Source: Candidatus Zixiibacteriota bacterium
GTDB lineage: Bacteria > Zixibacteria > MSB-5A5 > GN15 > FEB-12
Assembly: GCA_034439475.1 (NCBI GenBank)
Contig: JAWXAN010000051.1
Span: forward strand, 1-37,068
Length of the DNA stretch: 37,068 nucleotides
Reading direction: 5' to 3'
The notes beneath the pieces are model-generated. The model was not told where the DNA came from, searched no databases, and saw only the letters and a list, made by a program, of their open reading frames with translations. This document shows, one piece after another, positions 9,499 to 34,763 of this stretch. Both the position numbers and the translations under genes were made by a program. Within the stretch, counting starts at the first letter, position 1. Each line of letters starts with the position of its first letter.

Positions 9499-9810
9499 TG
9501 TCAAACCATCAGATTGAGATAAAGTACTGCTCACACAACTACCGCGCAACGACTTATCCGGTATTATTCAAAAGAATGACTTTTCGGGGACTTCACCCGA
9601 CTAAGCGCTTCATACCCTGTGAGCAAATGGTCACGAAATAGACCCTGGCCAGTGAATAGTCTTATGTTTTCAGAAGTTTTGACCTACAGTCCAAATCTGC
9701 TGAATTGTGTCCCGCGGATTGCACAATAATAGATTGAAGGAGTAGTTTCGAACTCCCCCCTCCCCACATTCCTCTTGCCTTTTTTCGGGCAATCTTCTAT
9801 CGTATTCTAT
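9499..9810. other. Intergenic region without a recognisable gene
   Basis: This 312-base gap separates the protease from the amidohydrolase genes. The first half keeps the AT-rich character of the protease gene. No intrinsic terminator with a T-run was found after the protease. A weak hairpin GGAGT/ACTCC lies near 9738-9755. No clear Shine-Dalgarno sequence precedes the amidohydrolase ATG, so that mRNA may have a very short leader. Confidence 0.4.
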
Positions 9811-12800
9811 ATGAAAACACCATCCATCATCATTGCACTGCTTATCGCCGGCGGCGCCACAGCCCAGACCACTCCCCCGCAGGGAATACGGTCGAAAAAC
9901 TCCGAAAGCAAAGCGTTCACCCACGCCACCATTATTATCTCGCCCACCCAGACTATCGAGAATGGAACGATGATAATCAAGGACGGACGGGTTGTTGCTG
10001 TCGGGACAAACATTCCCGTACCGGCAGGAGCCTTCGAGTACGACCTCAAAGGGAAGCGAATCTACCCCGGCTTTATTGAGCCGTATGGTGAGTATGGCCT
10101 GAAAGATGTCGGCAAACTCAACGAGGACACCAAAAGTCAGGCGCCCAAATATGAAGGCACCCGTGTCGGCGCCAATGCCTGGAACGATGCTATACATGCC
10201 GAGCGCAACTGGGTCGATGATTTCAAACCCGAAAAAGAAGCCGCCGATAAATTTCTCGAACAGGGCATCACGGTTGTGCAGTCGTCCAAAATGGACGGCA
10301 TCTTCCGCGGGCGTTCTTTTGTAACTGACCTGTCGCAGGGTCTTTCCAACGAGGCCGTCATCAAAGCCCATGCGGCCCATTTTGGCTCATTTAACAAGGG
10401 AACATCCAACCAGCAATATCCAAGCTCCCTCATGGGAAGTATCGCGCTTATCCGCCAGAGCTTCATTGATGCCGACTGGTACGCCAAAGCCCACACGGCC
10501 TATGCCAAAAACAGCGGCCAGAAACTGCCCGAATTCAACAGTGCCATCGCCGCTATCGCCGAAAACAAAGGGCCGATATTTTTTGAGGTCGAAGACGAAC
10601 TGACCCTGCTTCGCGCAGCCATTCTGTCCAAAGAATTCAGTGTCCCATTTGTCTATATAGGCAGCAACCTGGAATATGCCCGTATCGCCGAGATTGCGGC
10701 GGTCGGCGCCCCGGTGATTCTGCCGGTTGTTTTCCCGAAAAAACCTGAAGTGAAAAGTTTTGAGGATGCGCTCGATGTCAACCTCGGCGACCTTCGCCAC
10801 TGGGAGCGCGCGCCCTACAACGCATCGGTGCTTGAGAAAAACAAAGTGCCGTTTGCCTTCACAACATTGAAGCTCAAAGACAAATCAGACTTCCTCAAAA
10901 ATGTCCGACAGACTATCGAGAGCGGTCTGTCCCCCGCCGCGGCCTTGGCTGCGCTGACCACGATTCCGGCGCAACTGTGCGGCGTCTCAAGCGAGATCGG
11001 GACTCTGGAAAAAGGGAAACTCGCCAATTTCTTTATCTCGGACTATGACATATTCTCCGACAGCGCGAAAATCTATTCGGTCTGGATTCGCGGCAACAAC
11101 GAGAAAGAAAATGTCTCGATCCATCAAAAAGATTTCCGCGGCCAATATTCGCTCTCATTTGACAACCGAACGCTTTCACTCAATCTCAAAGGGAAAATGA
11201 GCGATCCCAAGGGCGAACTCAAAGAGGGCGATAAAAAGGCGAAGCTTGAAGACCTTTCGATGGCCTATGACCGGATTTATTTCTCCGCCCCGACCGACAG
11301 CCTTGCAATGCCCGGAACAACCCGATTCACACTTCTTTCGGTGAACAACCATTATGTCGGCACGGCCTCACTTGCCGATGGCCGTACCCTCAATATGACC
11401 ATAGCCCAGACCGGGCCGTTTGTGGCCGAAGCTGATACCTCCAAGAAAGAGGATGAGAAAAAAGATACCACCCTCGTCTCAATGCAAACCTTCCCTGATA
11501 TGGCCTTCGGGTATCCCACTATCCCGACATCGGAAAATGTCCTAATCAAAAATGCCACTATCTGGACCTGCGACGACCAAGGCACTCTTGAAAATACCGA
11601 TATGCTTGTCATCAATGGTAAAATCAGCAAGATCGGCAAAAACCTGACTGCCGCATCCGGCGCCCGGGTTATCGACGCCGCCGGAAAACATCTGACAGCG
11701 GGGATTATCGACGAGCATTCGCATATCGCCATTTCTAAAGGGGTGAACGAAGGCTCGCATGCTGTCACTGCCGAAGTCCGCATTGGCGACGTTGTCAACT
11801 CAGATGACATTAACACCTACCGCGCGCTTGCCGGCGGAGTGACAGCAGTCCAACTGCTTCATGGTTCAGCCAATCCAATTGGCGGTCAGGCCCAGGTAAT
11901 AAAGCTCAAATGGGGGCAGTCGCCGGAGAAAATGAAATTTGCCGCCGCGCCCCCCTCGATAAAATTCGCACTCGGAGAAAATGTCAAACAATCCAACTGG
12001 GGCGACGACAACACTATTCGTTATCCCCAGACCCGTATGGGTGTCGAAACGATAATGAAAGACGGTTTTCAGGCAGCGCTTGAATACGAAGCCGCTTGGC
12101 GGGCATACAACACCCTTGGCAAAGGGGCCAAAGAAACCACCATTCCGCCCCGTCGGGATATCCAGCTCGATGCCCTTGTAGACATCCTCAGCTCCCGCAT
12201 GTTTGTCCACTGCCACTCCTATGTCCAGACCGAAATCTTGATGCTCATGCGACTCGCCGAGGATTTTGGATTTAAAATCACAACCTTCACTCATATCCTC
12301 GAAGGCTATAAAGTCGCCGATGAAATGGCTGCCCACGGCGCATCCGCTTCCTCTTTCTCAGACTGGTGGGCCTACAAATTCGAGGTTTACGATGCCATTC
12401 CTTACAACACCTGTCTCATGCATGAGCGGGGAGTGCTGACTTGCATCAATTCCGATTCCCCTGAAATGGGACGCCGGCTCAACCAGGAAGCCGCCAAATC
12501 AGTGATGTATTGCGGCATTCCCGAAGCCGAGGCCATCAAATTTGCAACGCTCAATCCGGCAATCATGCTCAAAATTAACGATCGCGTCGGAAGCCTCAAA
12601 GCCGGCAAGGACGCTGACTTTGTGATATGGAATGATAATCCACTCTCAATGTATGCCCATGCCGAGCAGACCTGGATTGAAGGCGCCTGCTATTTCTCGA
12701 TTGAGAAAGATGCCCAAATGCGCGAATCCAATAGAAAAGAAAAAAATGCCCTGATTCAAAAAGCCCTCAACGGCAAATCTCCTTCTGGAGGAGGCGCCGC

Positions 12801-12885
12801 AAGCTACAGTCAGGTTAAAGATGAAAAAGCTTATGAATGCGAAGATAGAGGAGACGTCTGGGATGCGCTCAACAATAACAAGTAG
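9811..12885 (+). CDS. Exported tandem amidohydrolase, N-terminal half lacking metal ligands
   Basis: A 1024-residue exported protein with two amidohydrolase (imidazolonepropionase/dihydroorotase-like) modules in tandem. The start ATG is chosen because a signal peptide (MKTPSIIIALLIAGGATAQ) begins there; the open frame runs 12 codons further upstream. The N-terminal module has the composite beta-sandwich and barrel layout, but its usual HxH site reads YPGFIEPYGEYG, with no histidines. The C-terminal module keeps GIIDEHSHIA, the FVHCHSY and TFTHILEGYK histidines, and an aspartate in CINSDSPEMG, so it should bind metal and hydrolyse C-N bonds. Substrate is unknown; cyclic imides or peptides are possible. 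The next gene overlaps its end by 23 bases. Confidence 0.85.
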   Translation: MKTPSIIIALLIAGGATAQTTPPQGIRSKNSESKAFTHATIIISPTQTIENGTMIIKDGRVVAVGTNIPVPAGAFEYDLKGKRIYPGFIEPYGEYGLKDVGKLNEDTKSQAPKYEGTRVGANAWNDAIHAERNWVDDFKPEKEAADKFLEQGITVVQSSKMDGIFRGRSFVTDLSQGLSNEAVIKAHAAHFGSFNKGTSNQQYPSSLMGSIALIRQSFIDADWYAKAHTAYAKNSGQKLPEFNSAIAAIAENKGPIFFEVEDELTLLRAAILSKEFSVPFVYIGSNLEYARIAEIAAVGAPVILPVVFPKKPEVKSFEDALDVNLGDLRHWERAPYNASVLEKNKVPFAFTTLKLKDKSDFLKNVRQTIESGLSPAAALAALTTIPAQLCGVSSEIGTLEKGKLANFFISDYDIFSDSAKIYSVWIRGNNEKENVSIHQKDFRGQYSLSFDNRTLSLNLKGKMSDPKGELKEGDKKAKLEDLSMAYDRIYFSAPTDSLAMPGTTRFTLLSVNNHYVGTASLADGRTLNMTIAQTGPFVAEADTSKKEDEKKDTTLVSMQTFPDMAFGYPTIPTSENVLIKNATIWTCDDQGTLENTDMLVINGKISKIGKNLTAASGARVIDAAGKHLTAGIIDEHSHIAISKGVNEGSHAVTAEVRIGDVVNSDDINTYRALAGGVTAVQLLHGSANPIGGQAQVIKLKWGQSPEKMKFAAAPPSIKFALGENVKQSNWGDDNTIRYPQTRMGVETIMKDGFQAALEYEAAWRAYNTLGKGAKETTIPPRRDIQLDALVDILSSRMFVHCHSYVQTEILMLMRLAEDFGFKITTFTHILEGYKVADEMAAHGASASSFSDWWAYKFEVYDAIPYNTCLMHERGVLTCINSDSPEMGRRLNQEAAKSVMYCGIPEAEAIKFATLNPAIMLKINDRVGSLKAGKDADFVIWNDNPLSMYAHAEQTWIEGACYFSIEKDAQMRESNRKEKNALIQKALNGKSPSGGGAASYSQVKDEKAYECEDRGDVWDALNNNK

Positions 12886-14185
12886 AACAGTTCTTGGCTG
12901 GGCGCTCGCTCTCGCTTTGACAACCACTGTTTCGTATGCCAACAATCTCGTTCCCGGAGCCAAACAGGATCACCCGATTCTGCTCAAAGGCGGAGATATT
13001 TACACTGTCTCCGGCAGTGTTCTCATGCAGACTGACCTCCTCTTTGAGAATGGTAAAATCACTCGCATCGAAAAGGACATTGTACCGGCTGAGAACACCG
13101 AAGTCATCGATGTCGCTGGCAAACGCGTCTATCCCGGACTTATCGCCCCCAATACAACAGTCGGCCTTATCGAAATCGGCGCCGTTCGCGCGACCAATGA
13201 CCAGTCCGAGGTCGGCAACATTACTCCCGAAGTCTGCTCGCATATTGCCTACAATCCCGATTCTGAATTACTGCCGACTATTCGGTCAAATGGCGTTACC
13301 ACAGTGCAGGTTGCGCCCGCCAATTCTCTCATAAACGGTCGTTCTTGTATTATGAACCTCGATGGCTGGACCAAAGAGGACGCGGCAGTGAAACTGCTCG
13401 ACGGCCTCTATATGTCATGGCCGTCGGTTGCTGTCTCAACCGGCTGGTGGGTTACCCAGACGCCGGAAGAGCAGAAGAAAAATATGGCCGAAGCCCGTGT
13501 GAAGCTTCGCCAGACATTCGAAAATGCGCGAGCCTATGCTCTGGCCCGAAAAGCGATGCAGAACATCGGCCGCGACCAGCGCTGGGAAGCTATGATGCCA
13601 TTCATAAGCGGCGAACTTCCGGTCTATATTCTGGCTGATGATTATCGCCAGATCAGCGAAGCCATTGCATTTGCTGAAGAACAAAAAATCCGTATGGTCT
13701 TAGTAAGCGGAGCCGAGGCATGGAAGGCGATCGACCTGTTAAAAAAGCATAGCATACCTGTGATTCTCGGCACAACAACATCGCTCCCAATGCGAACCGA
13801 CGATGATTACGACCAGCGGTTCAAACTTCCCAAAATGCTGAAAGAGGCCGGTATTCAATTCTGTTTAGGCCATTCCGGAAGCTGGGATGTTCGTAATCTG
13901 GCATTCCAGGGCGGCCAAGCTGCGGCCTTTGGCCTGAGCAAAGAAGACGCGCTCCGCGCTCTGACTCTCTCCACCGCCGAAATCCTTGGCATCGATAAAA
14001 CGCAAGGCTCGCTTGATGTCGGCAAGAACGCCACACTCTTTGTTTCCGATGGGGATGTTATGGATATGCTTGGTCAAAAAGTTACCAACATGTATATCGA
14101 AGGCCGTCTCGTGGATTTGAGTAATCGCCATAAAGAACTGTATGAGAAATATCAGGCCAAACATTATTCGCCAGTGACAAAATAG
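12863..14185 (+). CDS. Exported amidohydrolase-like protein without HxH motif
   Basis: A 440-residue exported protein of the amidohydrolase fold with a signal segment (about residues 8-26, ALALALTTTVSYA). The N-terminal sandwich (LLKGGDIYTV, GKRVYPGLI) and the C-terminal return to the sandwich (GSLDVGKNATLFVSDGD) are plain. The catalytic HxH after GLI is replaced by APNTT, and the late active-site aspartate region is also altered. It is probably a non-catalytic partner of the preceding tandem enzyme, whose N-terminal half has lost the same site. The start is placed at the ATG preceded by AGAGGAG; an in-frame ATG at 12833 would lengthen the overlap. It is translationally coupled to the upstream gene and followed by an intrinsic terminator. 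Confidence 0.82.
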   Translation: MRSTITSRTVLGWALALALTTTVSYANNLVPGAKQDHPILLKGGDIYTVSGSVLMQTDLLFENGKITRIEKDIVPAENTEVIDVAGKRVYPGLIAPNTTVGLIEIGAVRATNDQSEVGNITPEVCSHIAYNPDSELLPTIRSNGVTTVQVAPANSLINGRSCIMNLDGWTKEDAAVKLLDGLYMSWPSVAVSTGWWVTQTPEEQKKNMAEARVKLRQTFENARAYALARKAMQNIGRDQRWEAMMPFISGELPVYILADDYRQISEAIAFAEEQKIRMVLVSGAEAWKAIDLLKKHSIPVILGTTTSLPMRTDDDYDQRFKLPKMLKEAGIQFCLGHSGSWDVRNLAFQGGQAAAFGLSKEDALRALTLSTAEILGIDKTQGSLDVGKNATLFVSDGDVMDMLGQKVTNMYIEGRLVDLSNRHKELYEKYQAKHYSPVTK

Positions 14186-14501: not shown

Positions 14502-14915
14502 TCACAACCGATACAACATCAGATAAACAATCACACCGGTCACAGATACATACATCCAGACCGGCCAGACCCATCGCGCGAGCCGTTTATGTTTGACAAA
14601 ACTGCCCCTCAAGGCAAACCAGACAATCGCGATAATGAACGGAGTCATGATAGCCGCGAGGATAATATGCGGAATAAGGATCAAGAAATACAGCGGGCGC
14701 GTCCAGTCGTAGTGTGGATACGGAACTGAACCAACATGGTAATGATAATAGAGATAGCATGTCAGAAATAAAACCGATGAGATAAGCGCCGAGACCATGA
14801 ACTTTTTATGCGTCGCAATATCGCCGCGCCTGATTCTGATAAATCCCAATACGAGGAATATCGTTGCAATAAAGTTCAACATCGCATTGACCGTCGGCAA
14901 TTGTTCAACTGACAT
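14502..14915 (-). CDS. DUF420 membrane protein, cytochrome oxidase assembly factor candidate
   Basis: A 137-residue integral membrane protein of the DUF420 family with about four transmembrane segments. Conserved-looking histidines sit between helices (ATHKKFM, YYHYHVGS, LIPHIILA, VKHKRLARW). DUF420 genes regularly accompany cytochrome c oxidase and SCO genes, and related small proteins (CtaM type) assist oxidase maturation in Firmicutes; the biochemical role is not settled. GGAGG precedes the ATG. It is the last gene of the minus-strand respiratory operon, 30 bp after the heme A synthase-SCO fusion. Confidence 0.82.
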   Translation of the reverse strand: MSVEQLPTVNAMLNFIATIFLVLGFIRIRRGDIATHKKFMVSALISSVLFLTCYLYYHYHVGSVPYPHYDWTRPLYFLILIPHIILAAIMTPFIIAIVWFALRGSFVKHKRLARWVWPVWMYVSVTGVIVYLMLYRL

Positions 14916-14945: not shown

Positions 14946-16484
14946 TCAATCATCAATTTCTTTGGCCAGCGCTTCTATATGAGTGCGAAGTATGTCCATT
15001 TTGGCGCGATCGCTATGTTCGTAGTATCCGCGTATTCGGCCATCTGGATCAACAAGAATAAATTTCGTACTGTGCATCCCCGGCAAATCGCCGCTTACCA
15101 GATAACCGGACTCGCATAATTGTTTTATTGTATCCGGCGACTCATGCCTCAGAAACAGCCAGCGCATATCATTTACGCCAAGTCCCTCAGCATACGCCTG
15201 CAAGACGTCCGGTGTGTCGTTTTCGGGATCGACAGTAAATGATAGGAACTGAACTTTGTCCGAGTGCGCGTAACGATTATATAACGAAGCCATCTCTATC
15301 GCCATAGCCGGGCAGGCGCCTTTGCAGTGAGTAAAGACAAAATCGACAACTGTGACTTTTCCGTCGAAAACAGAGTTGTCAATTTCCCCCACACGCGCGC
15401 TATCAAAATGAAACTGCGGAGCAGTTGTGATAATAGGCAGTGCGGCTCTCGAGCGTTCAGCCTGTGCGACTATGGCATACGACCCCACAGCCAGCAACAG
15501 AATCAGCGACGCTATCGCGACAAAAATCCGCATACTTATCCTTCCAGGCGCATTCGTCGATTCCTCGCGGTACGAGACCAAGGTGAACGCGACAAGGATG
15601 AGGCCAATCAAAAGCGAGGCCAGCCAGAGATGAAAGAGTTGCGTTATGGGAGACAGGCCGAATGTTATTAGTCCGAGGCCGAGAAACATCTGCAAGAACG
15701 CTATCCCTGACAATGAAAAGGCCGCGATACCAAGCGGTGTCGATTGCTTTTCTCCCTGAAATAACAAACCAAACGAGACGGCAATAGTCCCAACGATCAG
15801 GATTATGCCGGTGACGAGATGAAGACCGTAGGTTGCCCCAACCTTGGACAGCCAAGCCAGCGATGACAGAAGTGGAAATTCAGCCGCGGCGATCTCGACT
15901 TCTGCCCGAACCTGTGTACCGAGGACTATCTGCGCTATAGCGCCTAACCAAAGCAAGCCTATCCACATGCGCATTCGTTTTGATTGTGGATCGTTTGAAA
16001 GCTGAAGGCCCTTGTCTATACAATAAGCGTGTTGCGAGACGAACATGAGCAGGCTGACAATAAGCAAGGCAATCAACAGATGGAGGGTGACTACAATCGG
16101 CTGTAAATCCGATGCGACCACCTGGCTTCCCTGCCAGCCTTGGTATGCAACCAGGAGCGCGGCCCCGATACTCGGATAGAGCAGTTTTGGATACGATCGG
16201 TATTTAACCAGCGCCATAATGGCCAATGCGGCGATGATTATGCCGACCGACATGCCAACGAGCCGGTTGACATATTCAATCCATGCCAACGTCATATTAA
16301 AACTGGTCGGATCAATATCGGGCGGAATCTGTGAAAGAGAAAGGGGCGGAATCCATCGGCCAAAACATTTTGGCCAGTCGGGACAGCCCATTCCTGCGCC
16401 AGAGACACGCACCAATCCACCGACAAAGACAAGAAAGTAGGTCGATGCGGTGGCGGTCAGGGCAAGTTTACGGAACGAGGACAT
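14946..16484 (-). CDS. ctaA: Heme A synthase (CtaA/COX15) fused to a C-terminal SCO copper chaperone domain
   Basis: This 512-residue fusion joins two oxidase assembly steps. Residues 1-305 are heme A synthase with eight predicted membrane helices, the GMGCPDWPKC cysteine pair (C34, C40) and histidines H135, H222 and H285 as likely heme ligands. The first usual ligand, in the family motif EXXHR, is asparagine here (EYVNR, 70-74). A ninth helix (about 317-341) then leads to an SCO/thioredoxin-like domain (352-512) with the copper-binding CKGACP (C387, C391) and H471 in MHSTKFILVDPDG. The extra helix would place that domain in the periplasm, where CuA is assembled. ATG at 16484 is chosen over an in-frame GTG four codons upstream. 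Confidence 0.92.
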   Translation of the reverse strand: MSSFRKLALTATASTYFLVFVGGLVRVSGAGMGCPDWPKCFGRWIPPLSLSQIPPDIDPTSFNMTLAWIEYVNRLVGMSVGIIIAALAIMALVKYRSYPKLLYPSIGAALLVAYQGWQGSQVVASDLQPIVVTLHLLIALLIVSLLMFVSQHAYCIDKGLQLSNDPQSKRMRMWIGLLWLGAIAQIVLGTQVRAEVEIAAAEFPLLSSLAWLSKVGATYGLHLVTGIILIVGTIAVSFGLLFQGEKQSTPLGIAAFSLSGIAFLQMFLGLGLITFGLSPITQLFHLWLASLLIGLILVAFTLVSYREESTNAPGRISMRIFVAIASLILLLAVGSYAIVAQAERSRAALPIITTAPQFHFDSARVGEIDNSVFDGKVTVVDFVFTHCKGACPAMAIEMASLYNRYAHSDKVQFLSFTVDPENDTPDVLQAYAEGLGVNDMRWLFLRHESPDTIKQLCESGYLVSGDLPGMHSTKFILVDPDGRIRGYYEHSDRAKMDILRTHIEALAKEIDD

Positions 16485-16589: not shown

Positions 16590-17108
16590 TCAGCGGTGAC
16601 CGCCTGAGTCGCTTGAGTCTGTCGGAACCGGCTGTTTTCCTTGGTTGGTTACCGCCGATGCCATGCTGTCGGTTGGATTGCCCCCAATTCCGACTTCTTT
16701 TTTTGTACTGGCAGAATTTCCGCCCGAGCCATGAGCGGCAGGCGGGGCCTGCTGAATATTATACATATCGGCTTTAGGGTTTATTGGCCTCGCCGAGACT
16801 TTGTCGAGTTCGCCGCGCCGCATGGTATCGGCCATTGTGAACGCGATAAAAGTCGCCAATGTCGCAAGCGCCAGAAGAAAGACAGTCAGATATATTTTGT
16901 TGTCATAGAGCAAATGCATGAAAAAGAGAACAACCAGCGAGGCCTTTATTGCGGCTATCACCATTGCCACAATGAGATTGAGCGTTCCGAAATTAAATTG
17001 CGCTACCCACACCGTGACTAAGGTGAGAAACAACAATGCCCCTCCCACGCCGAGATAGATTTTCATCGGAAGGATGTGATGGTGGCCTTTTGACGATGTA
17101 TCGCTCAT
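16590..17108 (-). CDS. coxD: Cytochrome c oxidase subunit IV (prokaryotic type)
   Basis: A 172-residue protein with three transmembrane helices in its first 105 residues and the MKIYLGVGGALLFLTLVTVWV and IKASLVVLFFMHL segments typical of the prokaryotic subunit IV family. Subunit IV stabilises the oxidase and has no cofactor. Beyond the last helix there is an unusual tail of about 65 residues rich in Gly, Ser, Thr, Pro and Asn with no recognisable domain. The gene follows coxC by about 20 bp. A gap of about 105 bp separates it from ctaA. Confidence 0.88.
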   Translation of the reverse strand: MSDTSSKGHHHILPMKIYLGVGGALLFLTLVTVWVAQFNFGTLNLIVAMVIAAIKASLVVLFFMHLLYDNKIYLTVFLLALATLATFIAFTMADTMRRGELDKVSARPINPKADMYNIQQAPPAAHGSGGNSASTKKEVGIGGNPTDSMASAVTNQGKQPVPTDSSDSGGHR

Positions 17109-17130: not shown

Positions 17131-17799
17131 TTAGGCTATCAAATACAATAACGGGAAAAGGAAAATCCAGACCAAGTCGACCAAATGCCAAAACAGTCCG
17201 GTCATTTCAATCGGCGTATAATACTGGCTCGAAAATGTATTGCGCGAGGTCTTGTATATCAGCCAGCTAATCATGACCATTCCGGCAATGACGTGAATTC
17301 CATGCAGTCCCGTCATCGCAAAATAAATCGAGAAAAAGATATGGGGATTGGTACCTTCGATTCCCTGGAAGGTGTAAAATTTCCCCGGCAATTGACCGAG
17401 ATGAAATTTGTGGGCGTATTCAAAGTACTTGATAACCAAAAATGTCCCGGCCAAGCCCAATGTCAGCCAGAGATTAATGAGCGTGATCCGCTTCTTGCCC
17501 AGCTGCATATAGCGAATGGCAAGGGCCATTGTAACCGATGAGACAATCAGCACCACGGTGTTGGTTGCTCCCAGAACAACATCCAACTGTTTGTGAGCTT
17601 CCGAGAACATCTCAGGTTTCCATGCCCGAAAGATTGCGTACGCGCAAAACAGCCCGCCGAACATAAGAACTTCAGTAAGCAAAAAGACCCACATGCCGAG
17701 TTTGGCCGAATCCGCCTGCTGTTCGGAATTGGCAAAATGGTGCTGAACGTGGCTGGCGTGCTTTGTTTTGTGGTGATCTTCAGCTGTCTCTATTGCCAT
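17131..17799 (-). CDS. coxC: Cytochrome c oxidase subunit III
   Basis: A 222-residue integral membrane protein of the COX3 family with about five helices, the short bacterial form lacking the first two helices of the mitochondrial type. Typical segments are LGMWVFLLTEVLMFGGLF near the start, MTGLHGIHVIAGM and the C-terminal YWHFVD-like segment FWHLVDLVWIFLFPLLY. The gene starts 9 bp after the coxA stop and is part of the caa3 oxidase operon. Confidence 0.93.
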   Translation of the reverse strand: MAIETAEDHHKTKHASHVQHHFANSEQQADSAKLGMWVFLLTEVLMFGGLFCAYAIFRAWKPEMFSEAHKQLDVVLGATNTVVLIVSSVTMALAIRYMQLGKKRITLINLWLTLGLAGTFLVIKYFEYAHKFHLGQLPGKFYTFQGIEGTNPHIFFSIYFAMTGLHGIHVIAGMVMISWLIYKTSRNTFSSQYYTPIEMTGLFWHLVDLVWIFLFPLLYLIA

Positions 17800-19440: not shown

Positions 19441-20394
19441 TTATGACCCCGACTCATTTAGAGATTTAATGAATGCAATAAGCGCATCGATCTGACGGTC
19501 ACGGAGTACACCCTGAAAGGTCGGCATCACCGGCTGGAATCCGGCATGGACTTTTGCCTGTGGATTAAGGATCGATTCGCGTATATAATTTTCATCCATA
19601 AGTACTGTCGTTCCGTTTGCCAATTGTATCTCGGTGCCGTAATAACCGACAAAGCTCGGACCTTGAATTACACTTCCATCCAGACTATGACAAGTAACGC
19701 AGGCTTTGCTTGTGTACAATTGCTTTCCATATACTGCCGGAGGAAGATCCATTCCTTCGTTGTTTGCCTTCTCAAGCCAGGCCGCGTAGGCCGAGTCATT
19801 CATTACCCGCACTTTGCCAATCATCTCCGAATGTCCCTTCCCGCAATACTCGGTGCAGAAAAGGTCGAACTCCCCGATTGCTGTCGCTTCAAACCAGGCC
19901 GTGGTATAACGATTCGGCAGGACATCCATCTTTATACGAAAATTGGGAACATAGAAGCTGTGAAGAACATCGCTTGATGACAGGAGCAGACGAACCGGAC
20001 GGTTTACCGGAACGACAAGTTGGTTGACGCTCGAGGCGCCTTCAGCGTAGGCGAATGTCCAGAACCATTTCGCGCCTGTGGTTTTTATCTCGATTGCGTT
20101 CGCAGGTGTGATATGAAGCTTCACAAAACCGCTGAAACCCCAGAAGAAAACGATGAGAACAAGAACTGTCGGAATTGCAGTCCAGGCTATTTCTAACCCC
20201 AGATTGTGGTCGACACCCGATGTAAGTTGGTCTTTCCCCTGCCGTCGGTACTTTATCGTGAAATACGTCATTAAGCCAACCACGATAAAAAACATCACGA
20301 TACTGGCATAGAGAAGAAAATCGAAAAGCGGATCGATCTCAGTCGAAATGGTCGAATGCTGAGGAGGAAGCCAGAATGTGGCAGTACTATCCAT
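19441..20394 (-). CDS. coxB: Cytochrome c oxidase subunit II with fused cytochrome c domain (caa3 type)
   Basis: This 317-residue protein has two membrane helices (about 25-48 and 70-92), a cupredoxin domain and a C-terminal cytochrome c. The CuA ligands are complete: H145, C180, E182, C184, H188 and M191 (FCTEYCGKGHSEM). The heme site is CVTCH (232-236), and a methionine in VMPTF near 285 probably gives the sixth ligand. The fused heme domain defines a caa3 oxidase, which can take electrons directly from an adjacent cytochrome such as that of ACIII. Its start overlaps the end of the SCO gene by 8 bases, and its stop abuts coxA. Confidence 0.96.
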   Translation of the reverse strand: MDSTATFWLPPQHSTISTEIDPLFDFLLYASIVMFFIVVGLMTYFTIKYRRQGKDQLTSGVDHNLGLEIAWTAIPTVLVLIVFFWGFSGFVKLHITPANAIEIKTTGAKWFWTFAYAEGASSVNQLVVPVNRPVRLLLSSSDVLHSFYVPNFRIKMDVLPNRYTTAWFEATAIGEFDLFCTEYCGKGHSEMIGKVRVMNDSAYAAWLEKANNEGMDLPPAVYGKQLYTSKACVTCHSLDGSVIQGPSFVGYYGTEIQLANGTTVLMDENYIRESILNPQAKVHAGFQPVMPTFQGVLRDRQIDALIAFIKSLNESGS

Positions 20395-21295
20395 AAATAG
20401 TGCGGTCCTTGGAAGTTATCGTCGATCCCTCGGGAATCGGGATACCCGTATTTGCCTGCTGTTGAATCTTTCGACGTTCACGGATCCAAAATATGGCAAG
20501 GAATGTCCCGACAATCATCACAGTCAACAAGCCGGCAATTTTCATCAGGTTTCCGGCGAAGAGAACATACGACTGAGCATCGGGATCATAGTGGAAACAG
20601 TACAATATCAGCCGGTCGAAAGTACTCCCGATCTTTCCTTCGGAGGCTTCGATGAGCGCAAGTTTCAGATCCCGCTCTTTAAAATCTATCCCGTACAGAT
20701 ATCGGGAAATCCGGCCGTCTTCGGTCAGGACAAATGCGGCGGCGGCATGAGCGTATTCGTCTCGCGATTCATCAAAAAAATACTTGAAACCGATGGCATC
20801 AGCGATTGTTTGCGATTGTGACTCCTTACCGACAAGAAACGACCAGCCTTGCTCCAAGCCCGGTTTGCCGAACTCAACAATATACGTTTGTTTTTTAGCC
20901 AGTGCGAGTTCCGGCGTCTCCTCCGGATTGATGCTGATTGTCACCATCTGAAATTGGTCGCCGGGAGTCCATTCGAGTTGTTTGACGCCTTTGTTCAGAC
21001 CATTCATCACAAGATTACACAACATCGGACAGCGGTAATAACCCAATGTCAGTATGATCGGCTTCCCTTTGTGGAAATAATCTCCGAGTCGGACAACTTG
21101 TCCGAGGTCGTCAGTAAATGTCAAATCAAGAGGTATTGTGTCACCGAGATGTTCGATAATATCGATCTTTTGCAGTTGCGGATTCTGATCCGTTATAACT
21201 TGAGCAAAAACAGACGCGCCGCTTAATAACCCAGACAGCGCTACTGTGAGCAACAGAGTGCAAACAATTCGAATATATTGACCGTGTGATTTCAT
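20387..21295 (-). CDS. SCO1/SenC-family copper chaperone
   Basis: A 302-residue protein with a signal or anchor helix (about 8-31), an SCO thioredoxin-like domain and a second membrane helix near 245-270 followed by a basic tail. The copper site is C89 and C93 in YRCPMLCN plus H183 in YAHAAAAF. SCO proteins deliver copper to the CuA site of subunit II, and this gene overlaps coxB. GAAGGAG lies before the ATG. This is a different subtype from the SCO domain fused to heme A synthase at 14946-16484, so the locus encodes two SCO domains. Confidence 0.92.
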   Translation of the reverse strand: MKSHGQYIRIVCTLLLTVALSGLLSGASVFAQVITDQNPQLQKIDIIEHLGDTIPLDLTFTDDLGQVVRLGDYFHKGKPIILTLGYYRCPMLCNLVMNGLNKGVKQLEWTPGDQFQMVTISINPEETPELALAKKQTYIVEFGKPGLEQGWSFLVGKESQSQTIADAIGFKYFFDESRDEYAHAAAAFVLTEDGRISRYLYGIDFKERDLKLALIEASEGKIGSTFDRLILYCFHYDPDAQSYVLFAGNLMKIAGLLTVMIVGTFLAIFWIRERRKIQQQANTGIPIPEGSTITSKDRTIYG

Positions 21296-21377: not shown

Positions 21378-21728
21378 TCATTTGGATGTCCCCCCGTCTG
21401 GGGGAGCCGGCGCGGCTTTTCTTTCAAGCATCAACTCCTTCGCGCGCTCAATCGGAATACGGTATGTCTTGTTGGTCGTATCAACCATTTTATACTCGTG
21501 GAGAATCTGACTTTCTTTGCTTCGTGTCTCTTTTAATCTCGGATCAGTCGGAACGAGATACATCTCATGTATTTGCTTTTCCTTATACCAGATAAAATAA
21601 CTGTCCAAGGTAAAGACAAACACGCCAATAAGCGCGACGCCAATAAAGGTAAGAACGAAGATAATCTTGATGTTGACATCGCGCTTCTCGTATCCCGAAG
21701 GATGTTCCATATGTAAAGGTTCAGACAT
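21378..21728 (-). CDS. Small single-helix membrane protein of the ACIII/caa3 operon
   Basis: A 116-residue protein with one membrane helix (about 22-46, IIFVLTFIGVALIGVFVF), a charged N-terminus and a mainly polar C-terminal domain ending in a Pro/Gly-rich tail. No cofactor motif is seen. It lies between actF and the SCO gene, 19 bp after actF, the position where some ACIII operons carry a small extra subunit such as ActG or ActH. I do not recognise it with certainty. It may be a structural subunit of ACIII or an assembly factor linking it with the oxidase. Confidence 0.6.
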   Translation of the reverse strand: MSEPLHMEHPSGYEKRDVNIKIIFVLTFIGVALIGVFVFTLDSYFIWYKEKQIHEMYLVPTDPRLKETRSKESQILHEYKMVDTTNKTYRIPIERAKELMLERKAAPAPPDGGTSK

Positions 21729-29500: not shown

Positions 29501-30373
29501 TTACAGAAACACCCTCACCAAACTATCCGCCACCATCGCCAAAAACAACGCAAACAAATAAACAATCGAATAACCAAAAAGCGACCGCGCACTCGACTCA
29601 CTCATCTCGCGCCGTGCCTTGAAACATCGGGCGATAAACATCACGCCAAGTACCGTCGCCGCAATTCCATAGAGCCATCCTGCTCCAAGTGGAACAAGCA
29701 CGAGCGATACCGCCGAGACTATAAAAGCGTAAACGAGCATCTGATTGAGTGTCGAGGCATCTCCTTTGACCACTGGCATCATGGGAAGATTAGCTTTTAC
29801 GTAGTCGTCTTTACAAAAGAGCGCGAGCGCCCAAAAATGCGGAGGCGTCCAGAAAAAAACAATGGCGAACATTATCCAAGGAAAGGCCGCCATTGATCCC
29901 GTCGCCGCGGCCCATGCCCCTACCGGAGCCATCGCCCCGGCCGCACCGCCGATTACTATATTCTGCGCCGTGTTCGGCTTAAGCCATAACGTGTAGAAGA
30001 GAGAATAAAATAAAATCGTCGCAAGAGCCAATCCGGCTACCAGCCAATTGAAGAAGAATGCGAAAAGCGCCACTCCAATCACGCCGATTGAAATGGAAAA
30101 CACGAGAGCCTGTGTAGGCGAGATTTTTTTGAGCGGAAGTGACCGTCGTGCGCTTGTACGAGACATCTTGGCATCAATCTCCCTCTCAAAATACTGATTT
30201 AGCGCATTGGCCGATCCGCCTGTCAGAAACAAACCAACTAAGACAAGAAGAAAATTGAGAGGCTGGGTGAGGAAACTCCCTTCGATAACCAATGCCGACG
30301 CGCCGGTAAATAGCACCAGCAACATTATAGTCGGCTTTGTTAACGATAGATAATCACTTATATGTGATCGCAC
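29501..30373 (-). CDS. ctaB: Protoheme IX farnesyltransferase (heme O synthase)
   Basis: This 290-residue UbiA-family membrane prenyltransferase makes heme O from protoheme and farnesyl diphosphate, the step before heme A synthase. About eight or nine helices are predicted. Key features are the first aspartate-rich region around NQYFEREIDAKMSRT, where the family motif is NxxxDxxxDxxMxRT, and the second polar region YTLWLKPNT followed by GGAAGAMAPVGAW. The start is GTG with AGAGGA before it. It lies upstream of the act promoter on the same strand and serves the aa3-type oxidase encoded downstream. Confidence 0.94.
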   Translation of the reverse strand: MRSHISDYLSLTKPTIMLLVLFTGASALVIEGSFLTQPLNFLLVLVGLFLTGGSANALNQYFEREIDAKMSRTSARRSLPLKKISPTQALVFSISIGVIGVALFAFFFNWLVAGLALATILFYSLFYTLWLKPNTAQNIVIGGAAGAMAPVGAWAAATGSMAAFPWIMFAIVFFWTPPHFWALALFCKDDYVKANLPMMPVVKGDASTLNQMLVYAFIVSAVSLVLVPLGAGWLYGIAATVLGVMFIARCFKARREMSESSARSLFGYSIVYLFALFLAMVADSLVRVFL

Positions 30374-31109: not shown

Positions 31110-34100
31110 GTGAAAATTGATCGGTACTTTACCAAACAAGGCGAATCGCCATACAGCCATGTGCCATTCGGCAAACGTACATCAGAGATAAAAAACCCCG
31201 ATGGTTCGACTGTTTTCAAGCTCGAAAATATCGATGTTCCCGAGCACTGGACCCAGGTAGCTGTCGATATCCTCGCTCATAAGTATTTCCGCAAAGCCGG
31301 AGTGCCGCAGATCGACGAGTCGGGCAGACCGCAAATCGATTCCGAAGGCAAACAGATAACCGGCGGTGAAACCGACGCCCGTCAGGTCTTCCACCGTCTT
31401 GCCGGATGCTGGTCGCAATGGGGTGAAAAGCACAATTATTTCGATTCCAAAGCCGATGCGCAGAATTTCTACGATGAGCTGTGCTACATGCTTGCCGACC
31501 AAGTGGCCGCGCCCAACTCACCGCAATGGTTCAACACCGGTCTGCACTATGCCTATGGCATAACTGGTGTTGCGCAGGGGCATTTTTATGTGGACCCAAC
31601 CTCACATACAATGACCGAAGCCAAAAATGCCTATGAGCATCCCCAACCCCATGCCTGCTTCATTCAATCAGTGGTCGATGATCTGGTCAACCCCGGCGGA
31701 ATCATGGACCTCTGGGTGCGCGAAGCCCGGCTCTTCAAATATGGCAGCGGAACCGGGACCAATTTCTCGAGTATCCGCGGAGCCGGCGAATCTCTCTCTG
31801 GCGGAGGACAGTCGTCGGGACTGATGTCATTCCTCAAAATTGGCGACCGAGCCGCAGGCGCTATCAAATCAGGCGGCACAACTCGCCGCGCCGCAAAAAT
31901 GGTCTGCCTTGATTTGGATCACCCCGATGTGCTGAATTTTATCAACTGGAAAGTCATCGAAGAACAAAAAGTGGCCGCATTGGTTGCCGGTTCAAAGATA
32001 ATCGGTGAGCGGCTCAAAGAAATTTTCAATGCCGCTCGCATTTCCGGCCATAACGGCGATTCCGTTTTCGAAATCGACCCAAACAAGAACAAACAGCTCA
32101 AAGACGCGCTCAAAATGGCGCGACGATTCGCTGTGCCGGAAAACTATATCAAGAAAGTTCTCGACCTCGCCACACAGGGCATCCATGATGTCGAGTTTGT
32201 CCAGCTTGATACCAATTGGGACAGCGAGGCTTATCTCACCGTCTCGGGACAGAACTCCAATAATTCTGTCCGAATTCCCAATGAGTTCTTTGAAAGACTC
32301 TACGCCGGTGAAGATTGGCATCTCAAAAGCCGCACCAACGGCACGACTATCCAAAGCATTCCAGCTCAGGAGCTATGGGGAAAAATCTGCTATGCGGCTT
32401 GGGCCTGCGCCGACCCGGGTGTGCAGTTTGATACTACAATCAATGAATGGCATACCTGCCCCGAAGACGGACGGATAAACGCCTCCAATCCCTGCTCGGA
32501 ATACATGTTCCTCGACGACACCGCCTGTAACCTTGCTTCGATAAATCTTGTCAAGCTTCTCGGTGAAAAAGGTAACTTTGACATCGCCGGATATTTACAC
32601 GCCGTCAAAGTCTGGACAGTGGTTCTCGAGATCTCCGTCCTCATGGCCGCTTTCCCTTCCAAAGCCATCGCCCAAAAAAGCTATGAGTTCCGAACATTGG
32701 GACTCGGCTATGCAAATCTTGGCACACTGCTCATGAATATGGGCATCCCCTATGATTCCCCACGCGGCTATGCCTGGTGCGGGGCCCTGACGTCGATTTT
32801 GACCGGCGAGTCGTATGTAACATCGGCGGAAATGGCCAAAGAGCATGGCGCATTCCCCGGCTACTACCGCAACCGCGAATCGATGCTCAAAGTCATCCGC
32901 AATCACCGCCGGGCCGCGCTGAATGCCGACAAGACTGAATACGAAGGTCTTACCATAAAACCGACCGGCATAAATCCGGAATATATTCCTGAGGATATCC
33001 TTAAAACCGCCCGCATGGTCTGGGATCATGCCCTTCAGTCTGGCACCATGCACGGTTTCCGTAACGCCCAAACGACCGTCATTGCGCCAACCGGAACTAT
33101 CGGGTTGCTCATGGATTGCGACACGACTGGAATCGAGCCTGATTTTGCTCTGGTGAAGTTTAAAAAACTTGCTGGCGGCGGATACTTCAAAATCATCAAC
33201 AATTCCGTCCCGCGCACCCTTGCCAAACTTGGCTACAACCAAAGCGAGGTCGATCAGATTATCGCCTATGCGACCGGACATAGAACCCTCAAAGGAGCTC
33301 CGTATGTCAACCATGAATCCCTCCAAGCCAAAGGATTCACCTCAGTAGAAATTGAAAAAATCGAAAGCGCATTGCCTAATGTTTTCGATATCAGTTTCGC
33401 CTTTAACAAGTACTCGCTTGGGGAAGAATTTCTGACCGAGATTCTCGGATTTGATGCCGACACAATGGATCGTTGGGATTTCAATCTGCTTAGGGAAATT
33501 GGTTTCACCCGCGATCAGATCGATGCCGCAAACGAGTACTGCTGCGGCACGATGACAGTCGAAGGCGCGCCTCATCTCAAAGAGAGCCACTATTCGATCT
33601 TTGACTGCGCCAACAAATGCGGCAAAAAAGGAACGCGCTTTATTTCGTATGAATCGCACATCCGCATGATGGCTGCGGCCCAGCCCTTTATCTCTGGCGC
33701 AATCTCCAAGACTATCAATATGCCGGCTGAAGCCACAATGGACGACGTCAAAAAGGCCTACCGCCTCTCGTGGGAAACCATGAACAAAGCGGTCGCGCTC
33801 TATCGCGACGGAAGCAAACTCAGCCAGCCACTCAATTCATCTTTGCTCAGTGACGACGGCGATGACATTTCCGACTCTCTCTCCGTCGCCACCGTCTCGG
33901 AGAAGATGGCCGAGCGGATTATCTACCGCTACCTCGCTAAACGGAGAAAACTGCCCAACCGGCGCGGCGGATACACCCAGAAATCAGTCATCGGTGGACA
34001 CAAACTCTATCTCCGCACCGGTGAATACTCTGACGGCACACTCGGTGAAATTTTTCTGGATATGCACCGCGAAGGTGCCGCCTTCCGCTCGCTCATGAAC

Positions 34101-34763
34101 TCATTTGCGATTGCCGTTTCGCTTGGACTGCAGCATGGTGTGCCGCTCGAAGAATTTGTCGAAGCCTTTTTGTTCAGCCGCTTTGAGCCGAACGGGATGG
34201 TCGAAGGAAACAAATCGATCAAGATGTCGACCTCGATTATCGACTATATCTTCCGCGAGCTGGCCATCACCTACCTTGGCCGGAACGATTTGGCGCATGT
34301 GGTCGATGACGATCTCCGCCATGACACAATCGGCACTCCTGCCGAAGAGGGTATTGAATTTGAAGAAGAAGTACCGGCGACTCCGTCAATTACCGGACAA
34401 TTGACCAAAGCCAGCCGGGGTGATAATGATATCCACACCAACCGTCTCCGTCCCTTTGCAAATGGCGGAAACGGAAAATCAACTCACACAAATTCTAATG
34501 GAGGGAATGGACATGCGGCGAAGATGGCGCACACGACAACAGTTGAATCAGATTCAGAACCGGAAGCGGTGCTCGAGTATGTTGCGTCGTCACCGTCTGG
34601 AAGTGCCGGTGATACCCTCCGCCGCCGTCAATCGGAAATCCGACTTGCGCGCCTGAGGGGCTACGAAGGGGACATGTGCGGCGAGTGCGGATCATTCACG
34701 ATGGTTCGCAACGGGACATGTTTAAAATGCGATGCCTGCGGAGCGACTTCGGGCTGTAGTTAA
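31110..34763 (+). CDS. nrdJ: Adenosylcobalamin-dependent (class II) ribonucleotide reductase
   Basis: This 1217-residue enzyme makes deoxyribonucleotides using a cobalamin-derived radical and needs no O2. The ten-stranded barrel core shows the substrate-site cysteine in PHACFIQS (about 183), the loop [12 protein letters not shown], the NPCSE catalytic triad motif (about 460) and [13 protein letters not shown] (about 660). After the core, residues about 930-1070 match the TSCPD-type domain of long NrdJ proteins ([17 protein letters not shown]). A low-complexity Gly/Asn/Ser/His linker follows, then a zinc-ribbon-like tail with CGECG and CLKCDACG. The start is GTG at the only well-placed position after AGGAGGT. 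It appears monocistronic and ends before a terminator. Confidence 0.95.

Follow-up and report, generated by a model that had tools for sequence, protein, structure and literature searches.

Introduction

Are the heme and the copper steps of oxidase building physically linked, and what can a protein carrying a factor for each of them on a single chain tell about it? Accounts of oxidase assembly usually show heme A synthesis and copper delivery as two separate branches, and evidence for a physical heme-copper link comes, to our knowledge, mainly from human mitochondrial pull-downs. The window analyzed here (a stretch of 37,068 nucleotides, contig JAWXAN010000051.1 of the Candidatus Zixiibacteriota assembly GCA_034439475.1) contains a gene that a first-pass annotation, made from the letters alone, had read as a heme A synthase (HAS) fused to an SCO copper chaperone, with coupled insertion of heme and copper suggested as the consequence. 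A fusion of this kind, occurring in one branch of Zixiibacteriota, offers a natural experiment on exactly this question.

Architecture of the fusion gene

The gene is a single uninterrupted frame of 512 codons (Table 1), and its product bears two Pfam domains on one chain, COX15-CtaA (2.3e-42; 145.6 bits against a cut-off of 29.9) and SCO1-SenC (1.4e-19; 70.9 bits against a cut-off of 22.8; residues 357-483). The AlphaFold2 model, for which an alignment of the locus proteins served as the input (mean pLDDT 90, pTM 0.84), lays the chain out as eight HAS helices, a ninth helix (316-347) and a thioredoxin-like SCO fold (359-508), and the best PDB matches retrieved for it by Foldseek were SCO proteins and, for the membrane part, the Aquifex heme A synthase 8aw5. 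Start, end, strand, frame, Pfam domains and model all agree with the initial claim that one frame encodes a complete eight-helix CtaA/COX15 followed by an SCO domain. The chance that this frame was created by an assembly or sequencing error is practically negligible: the genome is a draft MAG and relatives do carry a stop at the junction, but nine other genomes, whose proteins are 38-50% identical, have the same uninterrupted architecture, which rules out such an error in practice and makes a genuine single-frame gene near certain.

Table 1. Coordinates of the fusion gene, its parts and its neighbors within the window.
Feature	Position	Strand	Basis or remark
HAS-SCO fusion gene	14946..16484	-	512 codons + stop, ATG start at 16484; homologues share start Met
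Heme A synthase part, residues 1-304, eight helices	15573..16484	-	Pfam + model
Cys pair C34/C40 (CPDWPKC), first outer loop	16365..16385	-	sequence/alignment; type 1C per PMC12808453
E70 and N73 of ExxHR-type motif (N73 replaces first His)	16266..16277	-	alignment
H135, second conserved HAS His	16080..16082	-	alignment
H222, third conserved HAS His	15819..15821	-	alignment
H285, fourth conserved HAS His	15630..15632	-	alignment
Ninth helix, residues 316-347, counterpart of separate SCO-A N-terminal anchor	15444..15539	-	comparison + model
SCO thioredoxin-like domain, residues 352-512	14949..15431	-	Pfam, model, Foldseek
SCO CxxxC, C387 and C391	15312..15326	-	alignment
H471, distal copper-ligand His of SCO	15072..15074	-	alignment
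DUF420 (CtaM-like), directly downstream of fusion gene	14502..14915	-	Pfam
coxD (subunit IV)	16590..17108	-	Pfam
coxC (subunit III)	17131..17799	-	Pfam
coxA (subunit I), only COX1 gene found in genome	17809..19440	-	Pfam + genome search
coxB (subunit II), intact CuA site, C-terminal cytochrome c	19441..20394	-	Pfam + alignment
SCO-B, second separate SCO gene, intact CxxxC	20387..21295	-	Pfam + alignment
ctaB, heme o synthase	29501..30373	-	NCBIfam

The heme A synthase part

In the genome profile search, the HAS part covers model positions 2-321 of 322, and its transmembrane helices in the model number eight. Its cysteine pair lies in the first outer loop and no such pair is present in the third, an arrangement that makes it a type 1C enzyme; the N-terminal pair is known to matter for the activity of type 1 HAS (PMC12808453). 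The designation of this part as a “full” CtaA/COX15 holds for the eight helices, E70, H135, H222 and H285 but not for the first heme histidine (B. subtilis H60), which is Asn73 here and likewise in nearly all of the relatives; asparagine occupies this position in 34% of type 1C enzymes (PMC12808453). A single HAS was found in the window genome, which is 98.7% complete, and the N-terminal part of the fusion is predicted to be the only heme A synthase of the cell, converting heme O to heme A.

The SCO part and its topology

Both cysteines of the SCO CxxxC motif and the distal histidine, noticed already at first reading, are indeed in place, and the fold matches SCO structures in Foldseek (TM 0.83 on target), copper binding or delivery being the function predicted from motif and fold. 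By alternation of sides, the eight-helix part has both of its termini inside, and helix nine carries the SCO domain out, as had been proposed; charged residues of the short loops favor the same topology, although the contrast is modest. The ninth helix itself was rightly recognized as the element exporting the SCO domain, yet it is not an additional linker helix, as the spacing between the HAS and SCO domains (~150 nt) is equal in fused and separate loci, meaning that it is the anchor of SCO-A itself and that nothing was inserted.

An internal ATG (codon 318, 15531-15533, minus strand) preceded by a moderately Shine-Dalgarno (SD)-like GGAAGG lies in the region of the old SCO-A start. It may be a relic or a route to some free SCO product, and it is not conserved by the other fusions. 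A free SCO product by internal initiation is not claimed, given that ~11% of positions reach -5 kcal/mol or better and that such a site is absent from most of the other fusions.

Operon and oxidase context

As with HAS, the genome search returned a single COX1 gene (at 98.7% completeness), and the cytochrome c domain on subunit II marks the oxidase as caa3 type; the fused HAS is thus predicted from gene content to serve the only oxidase of the genome. Across twelve loci compared, the operon runs in the order Act genes, orf116, SCO-B, coxB, coxA, coxC, coxD, HAS, SCO-A and DUF420 (one of them gave no coxD match, and some contigs stop short of the Act genes), and the second, separate SCO gene pointed out in the first-pass annotation is the SCO-B of this order. 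Genes for Cox11/CtaG, Caa3_CtaG and PCuAC were not found in 15 Zixiibacteriota genomes.

Several neighbors deserve a mention in their own right. The single-helix 116 aa open reading frame between ActF and SCO-B (21378-21728, minus strand) has no Pfam/NCBIfam match and keeps its position in nearly all Zixiibacteriota loci compared; a class II (B12-dependent) ribonucleotide reductase adjoins the oxidase operon (31110-34763, plus strand), and two adjoining amidohydrolase genes (1036 and 454 aa; 9775-14185, plus strand) have overlapping frames.

Distribution and origin of the fusion

Among 132 genomes of Candidatus Zixiibacteriota, all of them draft MAGs, ten (that of the window included) have the uninterrupted HAS-SCO architecture, and all ten fall within the family-level group of the window genome. 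The 47 HAS loci divide into 10 fused, 1 truncated, 10 separate with both genes in the same frame and 26 separate in different frames. Only one stop lies between the genes of the same-frame pairs, with an ATG directly after it in some, and many of the other-frame pairs show an ATGA overlap with an SD-like GGAGG. Nothing but the loss of a stop was needed for the fusion.

In the joint HAS+SCO tree, the fused proteins and the truncated protein of genome G039 form one clade (support 81/95, moderate), and HAS-only and SCO-only trees agree on the same group (SH-aLRT 82 and 93), whereas the same-frame separate state is scattered over the tree; a clade of the fused proteins without that of G039 was not rejected by the AU test (p 0.305). 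The simplest reading of these phylogenies, which have moderate to good support, is a single fusion event followed by vertical inheritance. Three loci are peculiar: L017 (G036) has CxxxS in place of CxxxC in its separate SCO-A and a tyrosine at the HAS Asn73 position, L019 (G058) has a stop codon within the separate SCO-A gene (an error or a pseudogene), and in L132 (G020) just the C-terminal end of HAS is in frame ahead of SCO-A, through either gene breakage or an assembly fault.

Adjacent but separate HAS and SCO-A genes also occur in some Neomarinimicrobiota and Calditrichota-related genomes, so that the neighborhood is common to at least two or three phyla. No HAS-SCO fusion was present among the matches listed for 245 genomes of the phylum of G134 (Neomarinimicrobiota), 39 of that of G133 (Calditrichota-related) and 247 of that of G141 (Balneolales; Bacteroidota or Balneolota), nor among the best 80 loci of a pattern scan of the genome collection, plasmids or viral contigs; the survey outside the phylum thus spans ~530 genomes of three phyla and those 80 loci, and rare fusions elsewhere are possible. 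The sequences behind three odd matches were examined and are not fusions.

HAS-SCO1 synteny has been described for other HAS types, and the HAS reviews give heme o synthase as a fusion partner (PMC12808453, PMC8239418, PMC9145763); fusion proteins were excluded from the alignments in PMC12808453, the accessible portions of which name heme o synthase as the sole partner. In the open-access literature, reviews of HAS included, no report of a HAS-SCO fusion was found in the portions available. Both of the fused families are already known, while their joining is, within the searches made, new and confined to one clade.

Fate of the SCO domain after fusion

Outside genus g30, all seven fused proteins have intact copper ligands (C, C and H), as do the separate SCO-A proteins apart from a single C-to-S change and a single truncated sequence. 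None of the three ligands is left in the three fused genomes of g30; the domain is still modelled with a thioredoxin-like fold, but within the same pairs it diverges faster than HAS (49-69% versus 74-86% identity), whereas the helix-nine region (82-88%) is as conserved as HAS or more so. This comparison, like the dN/dS values, is a rough guide only, dS being near or above saturation. Genome G039 (given as 100% complete) goes further: HAS, helix nine and a 21-residue tail are followed directly by DUF420, SCO-A is absent, and no SCO other than SCO-B was found in the genome.

In both g30 and G039, subunit II has its CuA ligands intact, as subunit I has its CuB motifs and SCO-B its CxxxC, from which it follows that the copper chemistry of SCO-A is dispensable there. 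SCO-B is the likely substitute, and the losses in two lineages suggest that SCO-A and SCO-B are redundant. The HAS cysteine pair is invariant throughout, g30 and G039 included, although the SCO cysteines or the whole SCO domain are gone from them.

Discussion

The reading that we favor, and hold to be fairly probable as a whole, is that of a vertically inherited fusion in which a normal HAS has a partly redundant SCO factor tethered to it on the outer face. Two neighboring oxidase-assembly genes, probably translationally coupled, would have been joined by the loss of a stop, so that SCO-A, with its own helix as the anchor, stays on the outer face in a 1:1 ratio with the synthase. In the window genome, SCO-A would still bind copper or reduce thiols during assembly of the single caa3 oxidase, presumably overlapping with SCO-B in its role, and the main effect of the fusion would be to fix the place and amount of SCO-A close to freshly synthesized subunit I and heme A. 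Judged from the aligned proteins, some fused lineages can do without copper chemistry by SCO-A.

A plainer account is possible, if on the unlikely side: a stop between abutting genes was lost and the result fixed by drift, with no benefit from the joining. The many relatives standing a single in-frame stop away from fusion, the unchanged domain spacing, the single origin and the later decay of the SCO part would all fit it, but seven deep lineages whose SCO sites are intact have kept the fusion without interruption, and helix nine in g30 is conserved at least as well as HAS. Another account is that the fusion brings copper delivery or thiol reduction to the place where heme A leaves the synthase; heme a/a3 would then go in together with CuB or CuA, and less of a pro-oxidant, half-built oxidase would accumulate. 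It elaborates the coupled insertion that the first-pass annotation had suggested, and it is unlikely in this form. A precedent makes it plausible, since in human mitochondria COX10 and COX15 are found in complexes with SCO1/SCO2 and COX11 and are held with the copper chaperones until these are loaded (PMC9232578), and both the shared HAS-SCO-A neighborhood and the failure to find Cox11/CtaG, Caa3_CtaG or PCuAC in the 15 genomes are in its favor. Against it stand the losses in g30 and G039 with the copper sites of the oxidase intact, and Paracoccus CtaA, which has no firm association with the oxidase or assembly factors (PMC5249081). Because the ligands or the whole SCO domain were later lost in two lineages, coupling, if present, is not obligatory, and the single origin of the fusion and the many relatives one stop away speak against an obligatory link as well.

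The two more specific roles initially offered for the fused domain fare differently. Service to CuB is possible, given that genes for Cox11/CtaG, Caa3_CtaG and PCuAC were not found in the 15 genomes, but lineages without a working SCO-A keep CuB nonetheless. A thiol reductase, if read as one dedicated to the HAS cysteine pair C34/C40, is very unlikely: the two sites share the outer face, SCO is thioredoxin-like and the pair matters for the activity of type 1 HAS (PMC12808453), yet the pair persists where the SCO cysteines or the domain have vanished, so such a reductase is not required. Quite speculative, too, is the notion of a tethered heme-copper assembly module, in which HAS and SCO would act together as a single device on the oxidase under construction, and g30 would have kept its metal-free SCO and helix nine as a docking scaffold after copper delivery had passed to SCO-B.

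The natural fusion lends independent, evolutionary support to the proximity of the heme A and copper steps. Moreover, one clade combines proteins with an intact SCO domain, proteins with a ligand-free one and a protein that has lost the domain but still has helix nine, so that the question whether the copper site is needed is open to a direct test.

Comparison with known systems

With type 1C HAS (CtaA/COX15), the fusion shares eight helices, a cysteine pair in loop 1 only, E70 and three of the four heme histidines, and it differs from them in the added ninth helix and SCO domain. With SCO1/SenC proteins, such as B. subtilis YpmQ and human SCO1, it has in common the thioredoxin-like fold, the CxxxC, the distal histidine and the outer-face location; those proteins, however, have a free N-terminus or lipid anchor of their own, whereas the fused SCO is anchored as helix nine of an enzyme. 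The CtaA-CtaB fusions of archaea and bacteria (PMC12808453, PMC8239418) likewise join HAS to a neighboring oxidase-assembly protein, but their partner is a heme enzyme and the one here is a copper chaperone; the chain has no UbiA-type heme o synthase domain, and ctaB is a separate gene. CtiP of Corynebacterium (PMC9145763) is also a fusion protein among the copper-center assembly factors, though one that contains Caa3_CtaG and no HAS.
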